Positions 6,353-24,874 of a DNA stretch of 24,874 nt are shown here, piece after piece (position 1 is the stretch's first letter; every line of letters starts with the position of its first letter). This DNA comes from a virus. The stretch lies in IMG/VR virus record IMGVR_UViG_3300037427_001773, positions 1-24,874 of that record; one strand, 5' to 3'. A program made the position numbers and the translations under genes. Below the pieces are notes generated by a model. The model was not told the origin of the DNA and made no database searches. It worked only from the letters and a program-made list of their open reading frames with translations.

Positions 6353-9300
6353 ATGGCGTTAGAAACCGGAACAACCGTTGACAGTCTTGTTAGCACTAAT
6401 CCAGCAAATACGGATCCCGTGGGCCAAGCCGACGATCACTTAAGGCTGATCAAAGCGGTCTTAAAGACCACATTTGCTGGTATAACTGGTGTAGCGGATG
6501 AAGATAATATGTCTTCTGACAGCGCGGCAAAGCTAGCGACTCAGCAGTCCATTAAGGCTTATGTTGATTCTCAAGTTACTGCGCAAGACTTAGACCTCAC
6601 ATCGGACTCCGGCACTATCGCCATTGATCTTGACTCTGAAACCCTCACCATTGCGGGTGGAACAGGACTAGATTCATCGGCTACAGGTAATACAGTAACC
6701 GTTGCTATCGATTCGACCGTTGCGACCTTAACAGGCTCGCAGACGCTTACTAATAAAGTCTTAACCTCACCCACTCTAAACACGCCGACAATCGGCACAT
6801 CCTTCACGATTGGCTCTGCGACTATTACAGAAGCGGAACTGGAAGTCCTCGATGGTGCAACCCTAACGACCACTGAGCTTAATTATGTGGACGGGGTTAC
6901 TAGCGCAATCCAAACCCAGCTTGATGCAAAAGCACCTCTTGCGACACCGACTTTTACCACTTCAATTACTATCGGATCAGCGACGATCAGCGAGGCCGAG
7001 TTAGAGATACTCGACGGCGCGACAGTCACAACAGCCGAACTGAATGTTCTGGACGGGATTACCTCGACAGTCAGTGAGCTGAACATATTAGATGGTGTTA
7101 CCAGTACAGCATCAGAACTCAATATCTTGGATGGCGTGACCTCAACGGCAACCGAACTCAATATCTTAGATGGAGTTACGGCGACCACGGCAGAACTTAA
7201 TTATTCGGATACTGGCTCGGCAGTCGGCACTGTTGTGGCTAGTAAAGTTGTGACCGTGGACGCTAACAAAGATGTCGCGAGCTTCAGGAACATTACCTTA
7301 ACTGGTGAACTCGATGCGGGCTCTTTAGATGTCTCAGGTGATGCTGACATCGATGGCACCCTCGAAGCAGACGCGATCACGGTGGATGGCACCGCATTGA
7401 ATGAGTACATCGCCGATACCGTTGGCGCGATGGTCGGTTCTAACACTGAAACTAACATCACTGTGACCTATGAGGATGCCGACAACACCTTAGACTTTGT
7501 GATTGGTACGCTTAACCAGGACACTACAGGCACAGCGGCCCTGGCGACTTCATTCACCGTCACGGCAAACGACACCGCTAACGAAACTGTATACCCGGTC
7601 TTTGTGGATGGTGTGAGTGGCACTCAAGGAGCTGAGACAGACGCTGGCTTAACGTATAACCCCTCAACAGGATTGCTCACCTCGACAGGGTTCTCAGGCA
7701 ACCTGACGGGCACGTTACAAACTGCTGCCCAGGCTAACGTCACCAGCGTAGGCACGTTAACCTCGTTAACAATATCCGGCGATCTAACGGTCGATACAAA
7801 CACTTTGAAGGTCGATTCGAGTAACAATCGTGTCGGCATCAACCAGGCAAGCCCAGATGTTGCTTTGGATATGGGTGCTAATACTGATGCTGTCCATATG
7901 CCAACAGGTACGACCGCGCAACGCCCAGGATCTCCGGCTGCTGGATACTTTAGGTATAACTCTGAGACTGCCAAGTTTGAGGGCTACACCGATGAATGGG
8001 GATCGATCGCTGGCGGCGGCAGCGGCACTAACATGGATACCAATATCTTTGCGGGTGATGGTTCAGACACAACCTTTACGTTAAGCACCGCGCCTGATAC
8101 TGAGCAGAACCTAATCGTATTTGTTGATGGTGTGTTCCAGGCTCATGATGCCTATTCAGTCTCAGGAACTACGCTCACGTTTAGCGCACCTCCGGCAAAC
8201 GGTCGGGTAATCACGGTGTTCCATTCGACCACAACGGTCGGCGGCTCTAACGCAACGATCAACACGATGACCGGGGATAACTCGGATGTGACGATTGAAT
8301 TAAGCGTGGCACCAGTTCATGAGGCAAATACCCAGTGTTATTTCGATGGGGTTTATCAAAGCAAATCAAACTACTCAATTTCAGGCACTACATTAACTTT
8401 CAGCACTGCCCCACCCACGGGAGTCCTGGTAGAAGTTATCACCCTCACTAACACTTCAATCACTACAGCCGCCCAATTAGTAGACGCTGATGCAGATACC
8501 AAGATCCAGGTAGAAGAGTCCTCCGATGAAGACAAGATACGCTTTGACACTGGTGGTACTGAGCGGATGATCTTGGACTCAAGTGGATTAGCTATTCCTA
8601 GTAATGCTATAGCTATTGGCCAAAGTACATTTTCAGGCAGTAATGTTTTAGCTGATTTTCATGGCTCTGGTAACGCAGTAGGCGCAAGTCTTGCATTTGC
8701 AAATGACCACAACACAGATAAGTTTTATGTGGGTCTTGAAGGCAATACAACAGGCGATGCGTTTCTATATCAACAAGAAGACGCTGATATAAATTTTTAT
8801 ACCAATAATACCTTTAGAGCAAAACTAGATAATTCTGGAAACTTAGGAATCGGCGGTCAAACTACACCCGCAGCAAAACTAGATATTAAGGGAGACACTT
8901 CAACCTACGGGGGAATGTCAAAGATTTACCTGACCGACACAAGCTCTAACGCAGCAAGAAGAAATTGGGCGATAGGCAACGGCGGCAGTGGTTATGGCAA
9001 TTTAACTATTGGTGTCAGTAATGCTGCTGACGGAGATCCGATGGCCTCTGGAACTCACATAACGCCATTAATAATAGACAATGCTGGCCACGTTACCAAG
9101 CCATTGCAACCAGCGTTTAACGTAAGGAATAGTGCTTCTCAGTTTAATATAGCTATTGACTCAGACGTTACTGTTGTCTTTGGAACAGAGGTATTTGATG
9201 TAGGCAGTAATTTTACAGGAAATACATTTACTGCGCCTGTTACTGGAAAATATCAGTTAAATGTAAATATTCGTTGGAACCAATTAAACACAGCACATGA

Positions 9301-9529
9301 CTATGTAATTTGTTTTATTAAAACTACGCTTAGAACTTACTATTCTATTATTGATCCAGATGGATTTGATTCAATTCCAGCTTATTTTACACAAAATGTA
9401 AGCGCGTTAGCAGACATGGATGAGAATGATACTGCCTATGTGTACGTTTATTGTGCTGGAGGATCTGCAACATCTGACATTGACAGCGGCCCCGGCTCAA
9501 CAACATTTTCAGGCATCTTAGTAGCATAA
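6353..9529 (+). CDS. Large tail fibre with 13-residue repeats and C1q-like tip
   Basis: This 1058-residue fibre is probably involved in host binding. Residues 1-50 (MALETGTTVDSLVSTNPAN, then DDHLRLIKAVLK) resemble the conserved virion-attachment end of marine phage fibres. Residues about 215-285 hold tandem 13-residue repeats of the form xELNxLDGVTxTx. Residues about 560-700 hold two copies of a beta module (FVDGVFQ / YFDGVYQ, each followed by YS[VI]SGTTLTFS). Then come IRFDTGGTERMILDSSG and NSGNLGIGGQ motifs. The last ~140 residues (from about NVRNSASQFN to FSGILVA, with FTAPVTGKYQLNV) resemble C1q/TNF-like trimeric receptor-binding heads. From about base 8581 the DNA becomes AT-rich, so the tip seems to come from another source. 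There is no S74 chaperone at its own C-terminus. Confidence 0.85.
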   Translation: MALETGTTVDSLVSTNPANTDPVGQADDHLRLIKAVLKTTFAGITGVADEDNMSSDSAAKLATQQSIKAYVDSQVTAQDLDLTSDSGTIAIDLDSETLTIAGGTGLDSSATGNTVTVAIDSTVATLTGSQTLTNKVLTSPTLNTPTIGTSFTIGSATITEAELEVLDGATLTTTELNYVDGVTSAIQTQLDAKAPLATPTFTTSITIGSATISEAELEILDGATVTTAELNVLDGITSTVSELNILDGVTSTASELNILDGVTSTATELNILDGVTATTAELNYSDTGSAVGTVVASKVVTVDANKDVASFRNITLTGELDAGSLDVSGDADIDGTLEADAITVDGTALNEYIADTVGAMVGSNTETNITVTYEDADNTLDFVIGTLNQDTTGTAALATSFTVTANDTANETVYPVFVDGVSGTQGAETDAGLTYNPSTGLLTSTGFSGNLTGTLQTAAQANVTSVGTLTSLTISGDLTVDTNTLKVDSSNNRVGINQASPDVALDMGANTDAVHMPTGTTAQRPGSPAAGYFRYNSETAKFEGYTDEWGSIAGGGSGTNMDTNIFAGDGSDTTFTLSTAPDTEQNLIVFVDGVFQAHDAYSVSGTTLTFSAPPANGRVITVFHSTTTVGGSNATINTMTGDNSDVTIELSVAPVHEANTQCYFDGVYQSKSNYSISGTTLTFSTAPPTGVLVEVITLTNTSITTAAQLVDADADTKIQVEESSDEDKIRFDTGGTERMILDSSGLAIPSNAIAIGQSTFSGSNVLADFHGSGNAVGASLAFANDHNTDKFYVGLEGNTTGDAFLYQQEDADINFYTNNTFRAKLDNSGNLGIGGQTTPAAKLDIKGDTSTYGGMSKIYLTDTSSNAARRNWAIGNGGSGYGNLTIGVSNAADGDPMASGTHITPLIIDNAGHVTKPLQPAFNVRNSASQFNIAIDSDVTVVFGTEVFDVGSNFTGNTFTAPVTGKYQLNVNIRWNQLNTAHDYVICFIKTTLRTYYSIIDPDGFDSIPAYFTQNVSALADMDENDTAYVYVYCAGGSATSDIDSGPGSTTFSGILVA
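6995..7189 (+). repeat. Five 39-bp coding repeats in the tail fibre
   Basis: Five successive 13-codon units encode [AS/T]ELN(I/V)LDGVT-like peptides; a partial sixth follows (AELNYSD). The peptide is well kept, but third positions differ from unit to unit, for example between GATGGTGTTACC, GATGGCGTGACC and GATGGAGTTACG. Two looser copies lie upstream around 6837-6900. Confidence 0.85.
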
Positions 9530-17209: not shown

Positions 17210-19256
17210 AAATGCACAAACAGATTTTGTGGAAGCAATGCGTAAGAAAGCGGATTCCTTAACACCAACCGAGTTAAAAGAATACCGAATTCAGGTAGCT
17301 AGAGAAAATCAAAGAAACCCAAGGAAAAAAAGCCAGCAGTTACTGGACTTTCTCAATCAATATATTCCTGAAAGAGAAGAGCGGTCGGGTGGTGAGTTTA
17401 TGGGAGGAGTTCGACAGCTTGCAAATGATGCGACGTTAGGTTTTTCCGATGAGGCTGAAGCGCGAGTCAGATCGCTTAATCCTTTTGGCCCGACCAAAGA
17501 TGAGCATCTGATGAACATACGCTCACAGATGAAACAATATGACGAGGATTATCCCGTTCATTCTGGAGTCTCTACCACATTAAGTATGGCAAGCCCTGCT
17601 ATGCTCGGCAAGACACTAGTGAAACGAGGTTTGCCAGAAGCAAAAAGGTTATTAAGTGCTGTGCCAGATCAGGTTGCTGATACATACAACCAATTACGCC
17701 GGGCATACGGAACATACGAAGATTCCTCTACGGTTGGCAGAGGAGGGCGGCTACTTGGGACAGGTGGAACGATGGGCGCGGTGAGTGGTTACGGTTACAG
17801 CGAGGCTGAAGACCCTGATCAACAGGCGATGGATGCTGGTATGGGATTTATGGTGGGTGGAGCACTTACCCCATTGATGGGAGTAGGACTACCAGCCTTA
17901 TACAACGTCGGAAAAGAGATGTGGCGAAGAGCTTCAAGAACGCCAAGGCAGCGAGCAGATGAGGTGTTAGGGGATGTGTTAGCAGCAGAGCCTTTAGACG
18001 AAAACATGGCCCCGGAAGGTGTATTGATGGATCAGTCGGCCTCATTACAAAAACTGGCTACAGAAGTAGCTGGTAAAGATCGAGCGGCTGGTGGTCGAAT
18101 GACTTCTTTGACTGTGCCAAGACAAGCTGGTGCAAAAGAGAGAGTTGTAGATGCGTTAAAGGATTCTACTGGGTTCACAGGACAGGAATATCGACCCTGG
18201 GCAAGACGAGCTGAAACAATAAGAAAAACGGTAGCGAAAGAAAAGTTTGAGGTTGTCGGGCCAGCTCCAATAGAAGTAACGCCAAAGCTGAAGTTTTTAT
18301 TAACTAGTAATTTTGTAGAACGCAAAACTAAAAATGCGATAGATGCTGCTGTTGTCAAAGACGGAGGGCTTCCGCAAAACAGAGCATTTGAGTTAGGGCA
18401 GGGAGAGACCATAGGCGAATGGTTAGAGGATGTTAAGCCGACTGCTGGTTTTTATGAGGATGTGGCGTTCCAGCTTCGGGACGATTTACAAAAAGCAGTA
18501 GCTAGAAGTGAAGAAAAAGCGGCCGCTGATATTAGGGGTGTTCTTCAGCAGCTTTATAAAGAAATAGATGATCAGGTTCCAGAATACGCAAGCACCAGAA
18601 AGATATTAGAAAAGTACCATCGAGCAGAAGATGCTGGCGATCTGGGTTCGTCAATGATGCGGAGATACAACACTCGCCTTGATGATGCTCTCGATGAATT
18701 TGACGCAATGACTTTAGAGCAACGTGAAGCCGCTAGAAGAGGGGTTGCTTATAGCGTCAAACAGAATCTTGATCGAACTCCAAGAACAGGAGACTTTGGG
18801 AAGTTAGGGAAAACTGAAGAGAAAGTGGGTGCGCTACAACAATTATCCAGACCTGGAAAGCGAGAAATACTGACCGACAGGTTAGAGCAAGAATCCAAAA
18901 TGCACGAAACTGGAAACCTTGTAAGCGCAGCTAGAGGATCAAGAACCATGTTTGGCAATAGAAGTGAAGAAAGTAGAACGCCAACGCAATGGTTTATGGA
19001 TTCGCTAACTAGATACTTAGGCCCAGAAGCAGCCAACGAAGTAGCAATTACCTTAACAAGACGCTTGCCCAGAGAGGACGTTACTAGATTAATTAACGGT
19101 GCATTGCCCCCAGAGAGGGTTCTGCCAACCGTAGAACAGATTGCGAATTCTTCTGGTATATCAGTAGCGTTAGCTCAAAGAGTAATCGAAAACCTTGCTT
19201 ATGATAATTCAGCGGTTAGAGAATCAACAGGAAGGTTAAGTGGGGCATCTGAATAA
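17199..19256 (+). CDS. Large ejection (internal virion) protein candidate with membrane-active Gly-rich segments
   Basis: A 685-residue protein. The GTG at 17199 is chosen because GGGAGG (17185-17190) lies eight bases before it; an in-frame GTG at 17190 overlaps that site. The pattern after residue 60 (GGVRQLANDATLGFSDEAEA, then DYPVHSGVSTTLSMASPAML) recalls internal virion proteins I have seen in phage late regions. A Gly/Ala/Met-rich hydrophobic stretch (about residues 198-242, GMGFMVGGALTPLMGVGLPA) may insert into membranes during DNA entry. The C-terminal half is helical and highly charged. Its stop overlaps the next start (TAATG). Confidence 0.65.
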   Translation: MASENAQTDFVEAMRKKADSLTPTELKEYRIQVARENQRNPRKKSQQLLDFLNQYIPEREERSGGEFMGGVRQLANDATLGFSDEAEARVRSLNPFGPTKDEHLMNIRSQMKQYDEDYPVHSGVSTTLSMASPAMLGKTLVKRGLPEAKRLLSAVPDQVADTYNQLRRAYGTYEDSSTVGRGGRLLGTGGTMGAVSGYGYSEAEDPDQQAMDAGMGFMVGGALTPLMGVGLPALYNVGKEMWRRASRTPRQRADEVLGDVLAAEPLDENMAPEGVLMDQSASLQKLATEVAGKDRAAGGRMTSLTVPRQAGAKERVVDALKDSTGFTGQEYRPWARRAETIRKTVAKEKFEVVGPAPIEVTPKLKFLLTSNFVERKTKNAIDAAVVKDGGLPQNRAFELGQGETIGEWLEDVKPTAGFYEDVAFQLRDDLQKAVARSEEKAAADIRGVLQQLYKEIDDQVPEYASTRKILEKYHRAEDAGDLGSSMMRRYNTRLDDALDEFDAMTLEQREAARRGVAYSVKQNLDRTPRTGDFGKLGKTEEKVGALQQLSRPGKREILTDRLEQESKMHETGNLVSAARGSRTMFGNRSEESRTPTQWFMDSLTRYLGPEAANEVAITLTRRLPREDVTRLINGALPPERVLPTVEQIANSSGISVALAQRVIENLAYDNSAVRESTGRLSGASE

Positions 19257-21118
19257 TGGCACAATACCTCGAATACATCGGAGCTCTATCTCCCCGTAAA
19301 GGCGTAGGCCCGGCTTTAATCTACCCAGGCTACAAAACCAAACAAGCCCCTGGTGCATTTAACCGTGGTCAAGACTCTTTAGGTGAGGGGGTATTAGGCG
19401 CGTTATCAGGTGGGGGCGGTGGTGGCGGTGGTGACGATGAAGATGTTGTAGATGACGACGATGTAGTAGTTGTAGACGATGAAGATGTTGTAGATGACGA
19501 CGATGATGTAGTAGTTGTAGATGATCCACCACCAGTAGTTGATGATCCTCCACCCACAGATACTGACCCTGGTGTTTTAATCACTCCAACCAAAAAACCA
19601 CCCAACGATGGTAATCAAATAACCTGGTTAGACGAGCTCCCTAAAACAGGTCAAAACATCGCTATAAAAATGCTTGAGATGAATCCTGATGCTGATGTTT
19701 CTAAAGACAGAATTTTGGCAGAGTTTTATTACGATGGACAAGCAAATAGCAGACGTATTTCTGAGTTTTATCGGAACTATTACAATTGGCGGCGTGACAA
19801 AGCGATTGAAAAGTCAAAAAACAAATCAGACAGTTCATCAACAGTTTCAACAAACCTAACTGAGCAGCCAGACGGTACAGTTAGACCGGGTGCAGATCAG
19901 CCTAAAATCACTGATACTTCCAATACTTCGACTACTTCGAGCACTTCCGATACTTCGAGCACTTCCGATACTTCGAGCAATACCAATTCAGGTAGTAATC
20001 CAGTGATCAATGCTGGATCCACCACACAACAACCATCAGGAAAGCCTGGTGTTCTCAATCCAAGCTCAACGTCAGATAGCGAAGATGACAAAAAAAGCGA
20101 TGGCGAACTGAGCGAAGAAGTCCAAGAAGTGCTAAGAGACCTTGGGGTTCTGGATGCAGCGGGAGTCTGGACAAAACCAGACATAACAGTCGATATTGGG
20201 GCCAATGGTGAGCCGCAAATACTCATCAACGGTAAGACGGTCGATAAAACCGTAATCGATGCAATCAAAAATCAATTCCCCGACATCATCAGAAACTCAC
20301 CGGCAGCAAAGCATCTGCCGAGTGGAGATACTCATCTAAAGATGGGTGGCGAGGGTGGAATTCTCGACACAGGCGTAGGAGTCGCAGTGCCTGTTGATAC
20401 CAGTAAAGAAGGTATATCCGGCGACCCCGTAATCTACAAAGATGTTTCGGCTGGCGATGTTGAAGATTTCAGGCGAAACCCATTGTGGTGGCTGCGAAGC
20501 CGCGCCACACAAGCTGGCAGAAGCGCACGGGACATATGGAATGATGTGAAAGATCGGCTTGGTCTTTCCGATGAAGAGAAAGAGGCGTTAGAAGCGAGTG
20601 ATCAGATCGATGGCACTCAAATCACTGGTGGCTATGCCGGGTATACATCAACTGATCCAACCTCTGTGACGGGGGGCGATTCTTTTAGTGGGGGTTGGTA
20701 CGAAAATCCTTTAGGGACAGGCGAGCCGGATTTTTACACGCCAGAGAGGGGTACTCGATATGGTAGAGCAACTTCGCCCCTGGCAGACTTTGGCATTAAA
20801 GAGGGTCGCGGCCTACCGTACTCAAAATTTCCTGTCGATGGTGGACAATCATCAGTTTACGGCGAAGTCCTGATCGACAAGATGCAACCTCATGGGAACA
20901 CGCTCACAAGTGAAGTAGATCGAATGGTCGCTGAAAGCCTACCGTTTGTCTCAGTGACTGGCCCAGATGGAACCCCGATGATGTACGACAAACAGACCGG
21001 GCAGACTCTTTCATTACCTGAATATGGTGCTTTAGTGAAAAGCCGAAACACCATCGGATTGCCGCCAGGCGTGAATCAGATACCAGGGCGATTGCCGTCC
21101 TATCGAGGTTATGGTTAA
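19256..21118 (+). CDS. Large virion protein with Gly8 and Asp/Val low-complexity region
   Basis: A 620-residue protein. After ~50 ordinary residues comes a run of eight Gly, then a striking Asp/Val-rich segment (about residues 60-90), then a Pro/Asp linker (PPPVVDDPPPTDTDPG). A second low-complexity region (about residues 220-245) is a Thr/Ser repeat, (ST)SDTSS-like. Globular parts lie between and after them: ITWLDELPKTGQNIAIKMLE and, near 285-350, EEVQEVLRDLGVLDAAGVW. The C-terminal ~200 residues, with a GYTSTDPTSVTGGDSFSGGW segment, may be a separate domain. No family is recognised. The position between two probable ejection proteins suggests a virion component. It joins its neighbours by TAATG overlaps at both ends. 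Confidence 0.6.
   Translation: MAQYLEYIGALSPRKGVGPALIYPGYKTKQAPGAFNRGQDSLGEGVLGALSGGGGGGGGDDEDVVDDDDVVVVDDEDVVDDDDDVVVVDDPPPVVDDPPPTDTDPGVLITPTKKPPNDGNQITWLDELPKTGQNIAIKMLEMNPDADVSKDRILAEFYYDGQANSRRISEFYRNYYNWRRDKAIEKSKNKSDSSSTVSTNLTEQPDGTVRPGADQPKITDTSNTSTTSSTSDTSSTSDTSSNTNSGSNPVINAGSTTQQPSGKPGVLNPSSTSDSEDDKKSDGELSEEVQEVLRDLGVLDAAGVWTKPDITVDIGANGEPQILINGKTVDKTVIDAIKNQFPDIIRNSPAAKHLPSGDTHLKMGGEGGILDTGVGVAVPVDTSKEGISGDPVIYKDVSAGDVEDFRRNPLWWLRSRATQAGRSARDIWNDVKDRLGLSDEEKEALEASDQIDGTQITGGYAGYTSTDPTSVTGGDSFSGGWYENPLGTGEPDFYTPERGTRYGRATSPLADFGIKEGRGLPYSKFPVDGGQSSVYGEVLIDKMQPHGNTLTSEVDRMVAESLPFVSVTGPDGTPMMYDKQTGQTLSLPEYGALVKSRNTIGLPPGVNQIPGRLPSYRGYG
19433..19519 (+). repeat. Tandem direct repeat encoding an Asp/Val-rich segment (42 + 45 bp)
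   Basis: Unit 1 (19433-19474) encodes DDEDVVDDDDVVVV. Unit 2 (19475-19519) is the same except for one added GAT codon, giving DDEDVVDDDDDVVVV. The near identity at DNA level, including third positions, implies a recent duplication plus a one-codon slippage. Confidence 0.9.
19914..19979 (+). repeat. Short tandem Thr/Ser-codon repeat
   Basis: ACTTCGAGCACTTCCGAT-like 18-bp units repeat at least twice, inside a longer array of ACTTC-type units encoding TSSTSD. It is a disordered linker in the protein and a likely slippage site. Confidence 0.8.
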
Positions 21119-23208: not shown

Positions 23209-23670
23209 ATGATCCTAGAATCCGTGGCAGTGGCTGCTGCGGCGTTAAATCAAATCGGCTCGATGATCGAGACCGCTGGCCAAGTTCAAGGCGGAGCGCA
23301 GCGGGTGATGAGCGCGATCTTAGACTTTGGGCAGGGACTTGATGAGCTTGAGAACAACAAGAAAGATACTTTTTTCGAGCAATCTCATTCTGATATTTTG
23401 CGGATCCAGATGATGCGTAGGCAGCAACAAAGATACGAACAGGATCTCGAAAATTTGCTCAGCATCGCCGACCCGATTCTATTAGAGCAGTATCGCCAGG
23501 CGAAAAAAGATCAGGTAGAAAAGAGAAAGGCACATCAGAAAGCATTAGCCGATGCTGCTCGCAGACGCAAACAACTCATTCAACAAATTATCACGATCTC
23601 AGCGATTGTTATCACAGGTTTGATAGCAGCAGCAATCGTGACTGCGCTAATAATCATGGTGCTCAAATGA
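23209..23670 (+). CDS. Coiled-coil protein with C-terminal membrane helix
   Basis: A 153-residue protein. Its short hydrophobic N-terminal start (ESVAVAAAALNQIGSMIETA) is followed by a long basic/acidic coiled coil (about 45-125) and a clear transmembrane helix at about 127-152 (IITISAIVITGLIAAAIVTA). It begins the block of small membrane genes at the end of the window. It could be an internal virion or lysis-associated membrane protein; no family is assigned. Confidence 0.7.
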   Translation: MILESVAVAAAALNQIGSMIETAGQVQGGAQRVMSAILDFGQGLDELENNKKDTFFEQSHSDILRIQMMRRQQQRYEQDLENLLSIADPILLEQYRQAKKDQVEKRKAHQKALADAARRRKQLIQQIITISAIVITGLIAAAIVTALIIMVLK

Positions 23671-23879
23671 CAGAAGTAAGAACAACAGAACCTCTTGTGG
23701 GCTGGCGAACGGTTGCCGTAACAAAGATGGAGCGGCTGCGCGACCTGGCAGAAGGTGATGATGGCCGGGTCAGAGAAGTAGTTGAAACAGTAAAGCCTCG
23801 CTTCTACACGATTAGTCCTAGTGGAAAGATTGAAGTGAAGGATCTCAGCTACCAGCAGAATGTAAATGTCCTTGCGTGA
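23667..23879 (+). CDS. Hypothetical 70-aa protein
   Basis: Small soluble protein with WRTVAVTKMERLRDLA and a C-terminal SPSGKIEVKDLSYQQ segment. It overlaps the neighbours by ATGA (23667) and GTGA (23876). The tight coupling at both ends makes translation likely. Function is unknown. Confidence 0.65.
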   Translation: MTEVRTTEPLVGWRTVAVTKMERLRDLAEGDDGRVREVVETVKPRFYTISPSGKIEVKDLSYQQNVNVLA

Positions 23880-24112
23880 AAACACTGGCATTAGTCTTTC
23901 AGATTGTCGTAATCATCAATGGCCCAGATGCGGCCGTTGAGCAGCCAGAAGAGATTTATTTTTATGACTTAGATAAGTGCCTGGTAATCAGTGAGCGACT
24001 TAGGGATCAACGAAACAAAGCCCACTACCGAAATACAAAAGGGATGGTCGGAGCTTACTGCAAACCAGCCTATGTATTCATCGAAGAAAAACAAACATTG
24101 ATATGGAATTGA
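23876..24112 (+). CDS. Small probably exported protein with two cysteines
   Basis: A 78-residue protein starting at GTG 23876, coupled to the previous stop. The N-terminus (MKTLALVFQIVVIING) is short, basic-then-hydrophobic, like a signal sequence or anchor. Two cysteines (C35 and C62, the latter in VGAYCKPAYVFIE) could form a disulfide in the periplasm. I recall similar short Cys proteins in marine phages near the lysis genes, but no function is known. A role in the envelope at lysis, or superinfection exclusion, is speculation. Confidence 0.6.
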   Translation: MKTLALVFQIVVIINGPDAAVEQPEEIYFYDLDKCLVISERLRDQRNKAHYRNTKGMVGAYCKPAYVFIEEKQTLIWN

Positions 24113-24113
24113 A

Positions 24114-24443
24114 ATGGTAAAGACATTTGAGGCAGAAAGTGAGCACCTTGCTTTAGATCAAGATAATGATGGAATTATTTCAGATTCCGAATTGAAAGCT
24201 GGTGCAGAGCTTCAGCAACTAAAAATATCAAACGAACGGGCAGACGCGCAAAGAGCTATGAGCTGGTTTGCATTGTGGGGGATGCTTCTCTACCCATCTT
24301 TAGTTGTAGCGTCTGAGCTCTTCGGTTTGACCCAGGCAGCATCAATCCTGGGTGATATGGCAGCAGTTTATTTTGTTTCAGTAGCGGGTATTCTCGCAGC
24401 GTTCTTCGGAGCGCAAGCATTTCAAAACCGGAATGGTAAATGA
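24114..24443 (+). CDS. EF-hand, two-TM membrane protein (holin candidate)
   Basis: A 109-residue protein. Residues 15-26 (DQDNDGIISDSE) form a textbook EF-hand loop, with Asp at 1, 3 and 5, Gly at 6, Ile at 8 and Glu at 12. A polar helix follows, then two hydrophobic segments, about 50-69 (SWFALWGMLLYPSLVVASEL) and 82-101 (MAAVYFVSVAGILAAFFGAQ). Similar EF-hand membrane proteins occur in marine phages, as I recall. It lies next to the spanin genes and has holin-like size and topology. Calcium binding and a holin role are inferences. Confidence 0.75.
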   Translation: MVKTFEAESEHLALDQDNDGIISDSELKAGAELQQLKISNERADAQRAMSWFALWGMLLYPSLVVASELFGLTQAASILGDMAAVYFVSVAGILAAFFGAQAFQNRNGK

Positions 24444-24844
24444 TGGGATACATCAGTGGTGGCCTGGGCATCGCTTTATTGATTATGTGTGGGATCTTCA
24501 AAGTCTATTTCGATCGATCACAAGAACAAATTACAGATTTAACAACTCAGCTCGAAACCTCAAAACAGAATCAGTTGAAACTCGAAGATGAGATTAAAGA
24601 GCAAAACGATAACCTGGAAAAGACGATCGCAAACCACGAAATGATTGTTGGTCAGATGGAAAAGATGACAGTGAAAAATCAAGAATTCCAGGCCGAGGCT
24701 AATCGACTCAAAAAGAAATTTTCAGAGCACGATCTCCAGCACATCGCCCTCAGACGACCAGATTCCATTAATAGGCTTATCAATGCCGCTACACAAAAAG
24801 TTGCTAAAGAATTTTCTGCTCTTACTGATCCTAATACTTTATAG
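24440..24844 (+). CDS. i-spanin (Rz-like) lysis protein
   Basis: A 134-residue inner-membrane spanin candidate: a single N-terminal transmembrane helix (about 5-22, ISGGLGIALLIMCGIF), a long periplasmic coiled coil (about 27-95) and a C-terminal LQHIALRRPDSINRLINAA segment, which resembles C-terminal regions of spanins in marine phages. ATG 24440 overlaps the previous stop. The following gene, whose start lies inside this one in the +1 frame, codes for a lipoprotein, the classic Rz/Rz1 arrangement. Together they would span the periplasm and fuse the two membranes at the end of lysis. This implies a Gram-negative host. Confidence 0.85.
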   Translation: MMGYISGGLGIALLIMCGIFKVYFDRSQEQITDLTTQLETSKQNQLKLEDEIKEQNDNLEKTIANHEMIVGQMEKMTVKNQEFQAEANRLKKKFSEHDLQHIALRRPDSINRLINAATQKVAKEFSALTDPNTL

Positions 24845-24874
24845 CGGGTGCTCTTGGCGGGGGTCAGAAGGCCC
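24783..24874 (+). CDS. o-spanin (Rz1-like) lipoprotein, overlapping Rz, 3'-truncated by the window edge
   Basis: In the +1 frame within the end of the i-spanin gene, ATG 24783 opens a frame with a lipoprotein signal: MPLHKKLLKNF (basic), LLLLILIL (hydrophobic), then YSGC with Cys23 as the predicted acylated residue. It continues SWRGSEG to the right edge without a stop. A lipobox reading with Tyr at -3 is slightly non-canonical; the rest fits well. In Rz1 genes the outer-membrane lipoprotein pairs with the Rz protein. The gene was not in any long-ORF listing because it is cut off. Confidence rests on signal peptide plus overlap with an Rz-like gene. Confidence 0.8.
   Translation, partial: MPLHKKLLKNFLLLLILILYSGCSWRGSEG

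Follow-up and report, generated by a model that had tools for sequence, protein, structure and literature searches.

Introduction

Holins set the time of lysis. In one phage genome fragment, a small membrane protein encoded beside spanin genes carries an EF-type calcium loop, raising the question of whether a phage can couple lysis to calcium. No report of EF-hand holins, calcium-controlled holins or holins with an ion-binding sensor was found in the literature searched. The window, the whole stretch of DNA analysed here, is a single IMG/VR record of 24,874 bases and constitutes a partial genome, which encodes SU10-type portal and adaptor proteins. We refer to the protein and its relatives as EF2TM.

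Results

The EF2TM gene and its surroundings

The EF2TM reading frame opens with the ATG at 24114, closes with the TGA at 24441-24443 and encodes 109 residues, MVKTFEAESEHLAL-DQDNDGIISDSE-LKAGAELQQLKISNERADAQRAMSWFALWGMLLYPSLVVASELFGLTQAASILGDMAAVYFVSVAGILAAFFGAQAFQNRNGK. The features of the region are as follows.

23209-23670, plus strand: TA155, 153 residues with a single membrane helix at the C-terminus; often found upstream of EF2TM (176 clustered members among the loci).
23667-23879, plus strand: small conserved ORF of cluster c14 in the same operon, its start overlapping the TA155 stop (ORF list, clustering).
23876-24112, plus strand: small ORF immediately preceding EF2TM, with a hydrophobic, signal-like segment at its N-terminus (ORF list, hydropathy).
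24114-24443, plus strand: EF2TM, 109 residues, predicted cytosolic calcium loop and two-helix membrane hairpin; candidate holin or holin partner (ORF reading, homologues, context, AF2 model).
24156-24191, plus strand: EF-type calcium loop DQDNDGIISDSE, residues 15-26 (direct reading, family conservation, synonymous codons, loop-independent scan).
24243-24266, plus strand: near-invariant juxtamembrane motif D-A-Q-R-x-M-x-W, residues 44-51 (D44 in 82/83, Q46 in 83/83, M49 in 81/83 and W51 in 81/83 members).
24264-24320, plus strand: predicted TM1, about residues 51-69, closing a continuous helix (residues 24-69) that extends from the loop (AF2, family hydropathy).
24354-24422, plus strand: predicted TM2, about residues 81-103 (hydropathy, AF2).
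24440-24844, plus strand: Rz-type inner-membrane spanin, its start codon sharing ATGA with the EF2TM stop (phrog_739, E 2.8e-11).
24801-24874, plus strand: 5' part of an outer-membrane spanin lipoprotein of Rz1 type, which starts inside the last part of Rz and is interrupted by the contig end (overlapping lipobox ORF LLKNFLLLLILILYSGC...; intact homologue at 6688-7071 of L002).

A preliminary description of this DNA had placed EF2TM beside lysis genes, and this holds, since the Rz-like spanin overlaps its stop and the Rz1 start follows. The downstream endolysin that it suggested looking for was not found: PF00959 detects none in the window or in L002, the closest relative of the window phage, Pfam and PHROGs find none among the scanned window ORFs, and the window ends before any endolysin. 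In L002, a tyrosine integrase (7307-8551) immediately follows Rz1, so the lineage of the window phage may be temperate. TA155, which matches phrog_32327 weakly, usually lies one to three genes upstream of EF2TM and is found elsewhere in Roseobacter phage CRP-345 (27176-27652). The window also encodes a putative fibre protein of 1058 residues with tandem LNILDGVTST-like repeats (6353-9529), and a 620-residue protein that contains a long low-complexity run of D and V (DDEDVVDDDDVVVVDD...) and has no Pfam or PHROG match (19256-21118).

The calcium loop is maintained by selection

In the loop, D15, D17, D19, G20, I22, S23 and E26 fill EF positions 1, 3, 5, 6, 8, 9 and 12. EF2TM thus has the 12 residues, the ligands at positions 1, 3, 5, 7, 9 and 12 and the glycine at position 6 of an EF-hand loop. 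Taken alone, the protein is weak EF-hand evidence because its Pfam EF-hand matches fall below the curated cut-off (best E 0.014, 15.3 bits vs 25.9), and these scores would fit a chance match within a hydrophilic N-terminus. EF-hand_1 is matched at E<=1 by 10 of 11 family members. The family argues against a chance match: its profile searched against the PDB finds calmodulin at E 2.8e-8 for the whole sequence, with single EF-hand domains reaching an i-E of only 0.04-0.12. Among 83 non-redundant members (<92% identity), D15, G20 and E26 (loop positions 1, 6 and 12) are invariant, residues 17 and 19 are always D or N, and residue 22 is always V, I or L, whereas the neighbouring residues 16, 18, 21, 24 and 25 vary. 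The invariant residues are written with different codons (D15, GAT in 58 and GAC in 25; G20, all four Gly codons; E26, GAA in 45 and GAG in 38); therefore, it is the protein and not the DNA that is conserved.

Every calcium-binding position had been described as satisfied. Direct reading agrees, and the motif D-x-[DNS]-x-[DNSG]-G-x-hydrophobic-x-x-x-E is kept in 297 of 298 tblastn homologues, the remaining one having an ambiguous base at position 1. Because filtering homologues on the loop motif might be circular, a DNA-pattern scan was run on the juxtamembrane motif DAQRxMxW alone, and it recovered the full calcium loop in 111 of 115 assessable family matches. L348 and L418 alter G6, L370 alters E12, and L325 is loop-less. 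Family conservation, synonymous codons and the DAQRxMxW scan rule out a chance match, the probability of which we put close to nil. Our comparisons support strong protein-level selection on the EF2TM loop. The loop-less relative in L325 (592-981, minus strand) keeps the membrane hairpin and DAQRxMxW, and offers a ready-made natural control protein.

A calcium loop on a predicted membrane-entering helix

Two membrane helices had been claimed for EF2TM, and both hydropathy and an AF2 model (69 sequences, pLDDT 75.8, pTM 0.46) predict them. In the model, an unbroken helix of residues 24-69 begins inside the loop and includes TM1, and a second helix of residues 83-107 contains TM2. The claim of a canonical EF-hand stands for the loop and fails for the fold. 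The entering helix before the loop is absent, with AF2 showing helix at residues 10-12 only and at low confidence, and some relatives have merely 4-6 residues in front of the loop. In addition, there is one loop per chain, without the second, paired EF-hand. According to the model, EF2TM is a DxDxDG calcium loop atop a membrane-entering helix, and its fold is not a canonical EF-hand. Being single, unpaired and devoid of an entering helix, the loop may have a weak affinity for calcium.

Positive-inside charge counts favour an N-in/C-in orientation in 83/83 members, with a mean K+R of 4.2 before TM1, 0.7 in the turn and 2.6 at the C-terminus. This predicts a cytosolic loop, which would see external calcium only after a membrane leak. 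Class II (S21-like) holins have two TM helices and an N-in/C-in topology (PMC9636201), and EF2TM is predicted to share this arrangement.

This geometry also suits another function, in which the loop constitutively binds Ca2+ or Mg2+, only caps and stabilises the long helix and senses nothing, EF2TM remaining a lysis protein. In the AF2 model the 46-residue helix starts exactly at the loop, and single EF loops are often weak sensors. However, Glu at position 12 of an EF loop favours Ca2+ over Mg2+, and it is present in 83/83 members; with cytosolic free calcium in bacteria normally at sub-micromolar levels, the loop would have to be of high affinity for calcium to fill it constitutively. We regard a purely structural loop as a realistic possibility, somewhat short of an even chance. 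Binding of calcium by the loop, whether structural or regulatory, is likely.

An unnamed family of aquatic phages

One query of IMG/VR confirmed at least 595 EF2TM relatives among at least 599 candidate stretches; a query with HTVC008M gave at least 591 and one with DC31 gave 325, and these sets probably overlap. The GenBank carriers are Pelagibacter phage HTVC008M, four Melnitz phages of Methylophilales, Limnohabitans phage DC31 and the Roseobacter phages CRP-1, CRP-9, CRP-207, CRP-345 and CRP-810, so that the host range by isolates spans Pelagibacter, OM43, Roseobacter and Limnohabitans. In every one of them the product is labelled 'hypothetical protein'. Cellular relatives were found at one locus in genome_contigs, on a gammaproteobacterial MAG contig, and the family is therefore essentially viral. 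EF2TM has no significant match to a known holin family in Pfam, PHROGs or NCBIfam; the sole PHROG that the family touches repeatedly is phrog_27150, which carries the database label 'unknown function'. A fold search of the PDB returned nothing meaningful, and one of BFVD returned a single short unnamed viral protein (A0A516M8G9, E 3.6e-5). Marine calcium levels had been offered as a reason for the loop. We dropped this reason because freshwater phages such as Limnohabitans phage DC31 share a large branch of the family and keep the loop.

EF2TM stays while its lysis partners change

Neighbouring genes were assigned to families by comparing cluster representatives with Pfam and PHROGs, and a lysis locus was defined by an endolysin, spanin or 3TM holin gene within four same-strand genes of EF2TM. 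The 276 loci with readable context divide into 173 lysis loci, 71 T4-like tail clusters, 25 others and 7 contig ends, counts that include near-duplicates; the non-redundant set has 48 lysis and 21 T4-like members. In 107 of the 173 lysis loci the next gene overlaps EF2TM. The partner sets are an Rz8-type spanin with an M15_3 peptidase (48), a 3TM holin with GH24 (31), a u-spanin with M15_4 (13), Rz with GH24 (12, and 5 with Rz1), phrog_2524 with GH19 (11) and phrog_2524 with M15_4 (10). EF2TM thus remains constant while four endolysin types (GH24, M15_3, M15_4 and GH19) swap around it together with Rz/Rz1, u-spanin or 3TM holins. The isolates show the same kind of cassette: EF2TM, spanin2 and endolysin in CRP-345, EF2TM and endolysin in CRP-1 and CRP-9, and lysozyme and EF2TM in CRP-207, with DC31 and CRP-810 also counted among isolates carrying EF2TM in a lysis context. 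Like class II holin genes, EF2TM therefore lies near endolysin and/or spanin genes, the endolysin itself being outside the window in the present phage. We conclude that EF2TM is very probably part of the lysis machinery.

Two families labelled 'unknown function' in the database appear in these cassettes. Phrog_2524 fills the 3TM-holin slot between EF2TM and endolysin (L199, 1607-1963, and cluster 31) and is probably a lysis gene. Phrog_30566, which has an N-terminal lipobox and a C-terminal membrane helix (L172, 2349-2747; CRP-1 gp54) and lies beside the endolysin, is a probable unimolecular spanin.

The 173 lysis loci include 95 with a spanin, about 63 with a 3TM holin-type gene and 15 with an endolysin only. 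A spanin and a 3TM holin-type gene never occur together within four genes of EF2TM, and the slot after EF2TM holds one or the other (for example, L038 1295-1678 vs L225 1146-1601). The 3TM holin-type gene, which adjoins EF2TM in about a third of the lysis loci, speaks against the holin reading, and at those loci EF2TM cannot be the sole holin. EF2TM could instead be an antiholin or regulator of a separate holin, with calcium binding releasing or imposing a block. The 3TM gene is usually directly downstream of EF2TM, and a long cytosolic sensor domain would suit a regulator. However, the 95 spanin loci have no nearby 3TM gene to regulate, and PF11351, the GTA_holin_3TM family, is present in CRP-810 and missing from the other 7 of the 8 isolate genomes searched. 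Moreover, a permissive hydropathy scan of CRP-1 (67 annotated CDS) found EF2TM (gp56) to be the only short membrane-hairpin protein besides the u-spanin gp54, which leaves no other such protein to regulate; its endolysin gene directly follows and overlaps EF2TM. We consider a purely regulatory role for EF2TM unlikely.

A separate clear holin elsewhere had been named as an observation that would speak against the proposal. Such a gene accompanies EF2TM at the 3TM loci, but not in CRP-1, CRP-345, DC31 or the window, itself a partial genome. In CRP-345 a second small protein with two helices, gp02 (56 residues), is encoded far from the cassette. HTVC008M has no annotated holin, and its endolysin (phrog_3513, with an N-terminal hydrophobic segment) and Rz-like spanin (phrog_739) are encoded away from EF2TM; because it also contains a further plausible ORF with two helices and several with one, elimination is weaker there. 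An unannotated candidate spanin pair, Rz-like (phrog_739) followed by a small lipoprotein, lies at 117049-117582 of HTVC008M (KC465899.1).

The T4-type branch

In the 71 T4-like loci, including those of HTVC008M and the Melnitz phages, EF2TM lies between baseplate-hub/gp51 genes and the tape-measure gene. This position raises the alternative that EF2TM is a membrane protein that is associated with the tail or ejected, such as a partner of the tape measure, and that its proximity to lysis genes merely reflects the end of a structural operon. The location of TA155 near structural genes in CRP-345 points the same way. Against it, EF2TM adjoins the endolysin in CRP-1, CRP-345, CRP-207 and CRP-9 and, where visible, precedes the terminase genes, without tail genes next to it. 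In the tree, which has few columns and many poorly resolved forks, the T4-context sequences form one branch with a few members from other contexts nested inside. One of these, L122, has a small ORF, Rz and Rz1 after EF2TM. A T4-type sequence in a lysis cassette argues that the tail-side EF2TM gene of HTVC008M belongs to a scattered lysis set like that of T4, and is not a tail gene. A tail function for EF2TM appears improbable.

Discussion

The preliminary description had proposed a calcium-sensing holin or antiholin. Selection on the loop, the lysis cassettes and the predicted class II topology support this proposal in part, and marine calcium has been lost as its rationale. With moderate confidence, we assign EF2TM as a holin of class II topology or, at loci that also encode a 3TM holin, as a holin partner. 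The likelihoods that we attach to the lysis role, the holin assignment, calcium binding and calcium-controlled timing are judgements and not computed values.

We propose that a cytosolic, N-terminal, single EF-type loop caps one long helix that would run unbroken into TM1, followed by TM2 and a short basic tail returning to the cytosol. In cassettes of EF2TM, spanin and endolysin, EF2TM would most likely be the holin: late in infection it would build up in the inner membrane before opening it, possibly by pore formation, and thereby allow endolysin and spanins to act. In cassettes with a 3TM holin of the PF11351 or phrog_2524 type, EF2TM would most likely be a second holin component, either partner or antiholin. 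The invariant Glu at position 12 makes Ca2+, rather than Mg2+, the most likely ligand of the loop. In its simplest role, the loop would act as a switch that stays empty while cytosolic calcium is at its low resting level and fills once a first leak admits calcium. The filled loop might stiffen the helix or pair the loops of neighbouring monomers, leading to abrupt triggering. Such calcium-triggered lysis, in which calcium from the first leak locks neighbouring holins open by positive feedback, would control timing; we put it forward tentatively, as a possibility that we doubt more than we believe.

Comparison with known systems places EF2TM near several of them. Like class II holins, it is small, has two helices, a predicted N-in/C-in topology and a basic C-terminus, and its gene adjoins spanin or endolysin; unlike them, it has a cytosolic calcium loop and a long helix, and it matches no known holin family in sequence. 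GTA_holin_3TM (PF11351) occupies the same cassettes and shows weak profile similarity in the TM region (hhalign probability 20, E 0.0011), but it has three helices and no EF loop, is a separate gene beside EF2TM in some cassettes, and its Pfam model does not match EF2TM. A common origin with 3TM holins was considered and not adopted, the hhalign probability of 20 being weak support. As in calmodulin-family EF-hands and Dx[DN]xDG calcium loops (PMC3123361), EF2TM has the full 12-residue loop with E12 and an exit helix, whereas its loop is single, unpaired and without an entering helix, and its exit helix continues into a membrane helix.

The lysis genes of T4, the holin gene t and the endolysin gene e, are scattered in the genome, and T is a class III holin with one helix. 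In HTVC008M, a T4-like pelagiphage, the candidate holin, endolysin and spanin are likewise far apart, although EF2TM has two helices and a calcium loop in place of the single helix of T. The paper on the Melnitz phages named no holin gene and proposed the curli pore CsgG as a pinholin analogue (PMC9004378).

The EF2TM family is unnamed and very common in aquatic phages, and its members are strong candidates for overlooked holin-like lysis proteins. Phages of the abundant hosts SAR11 and OM43 carry EF2TM where no holin has been named. The family provides a concrete gene with concrete residues (D15 and E26) for asking whether a phage couples lysis to calcium. If calcium-triggered lysis is true, lysis would be abrupt and tied to membrane integrity, for instance after damage or superinfection. 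EF2TM would then represent a ligand-gated holin family widespread among phages of oceans and lakes, and it would be the holin missing from HTVC008M- and Melnitz-like phages.
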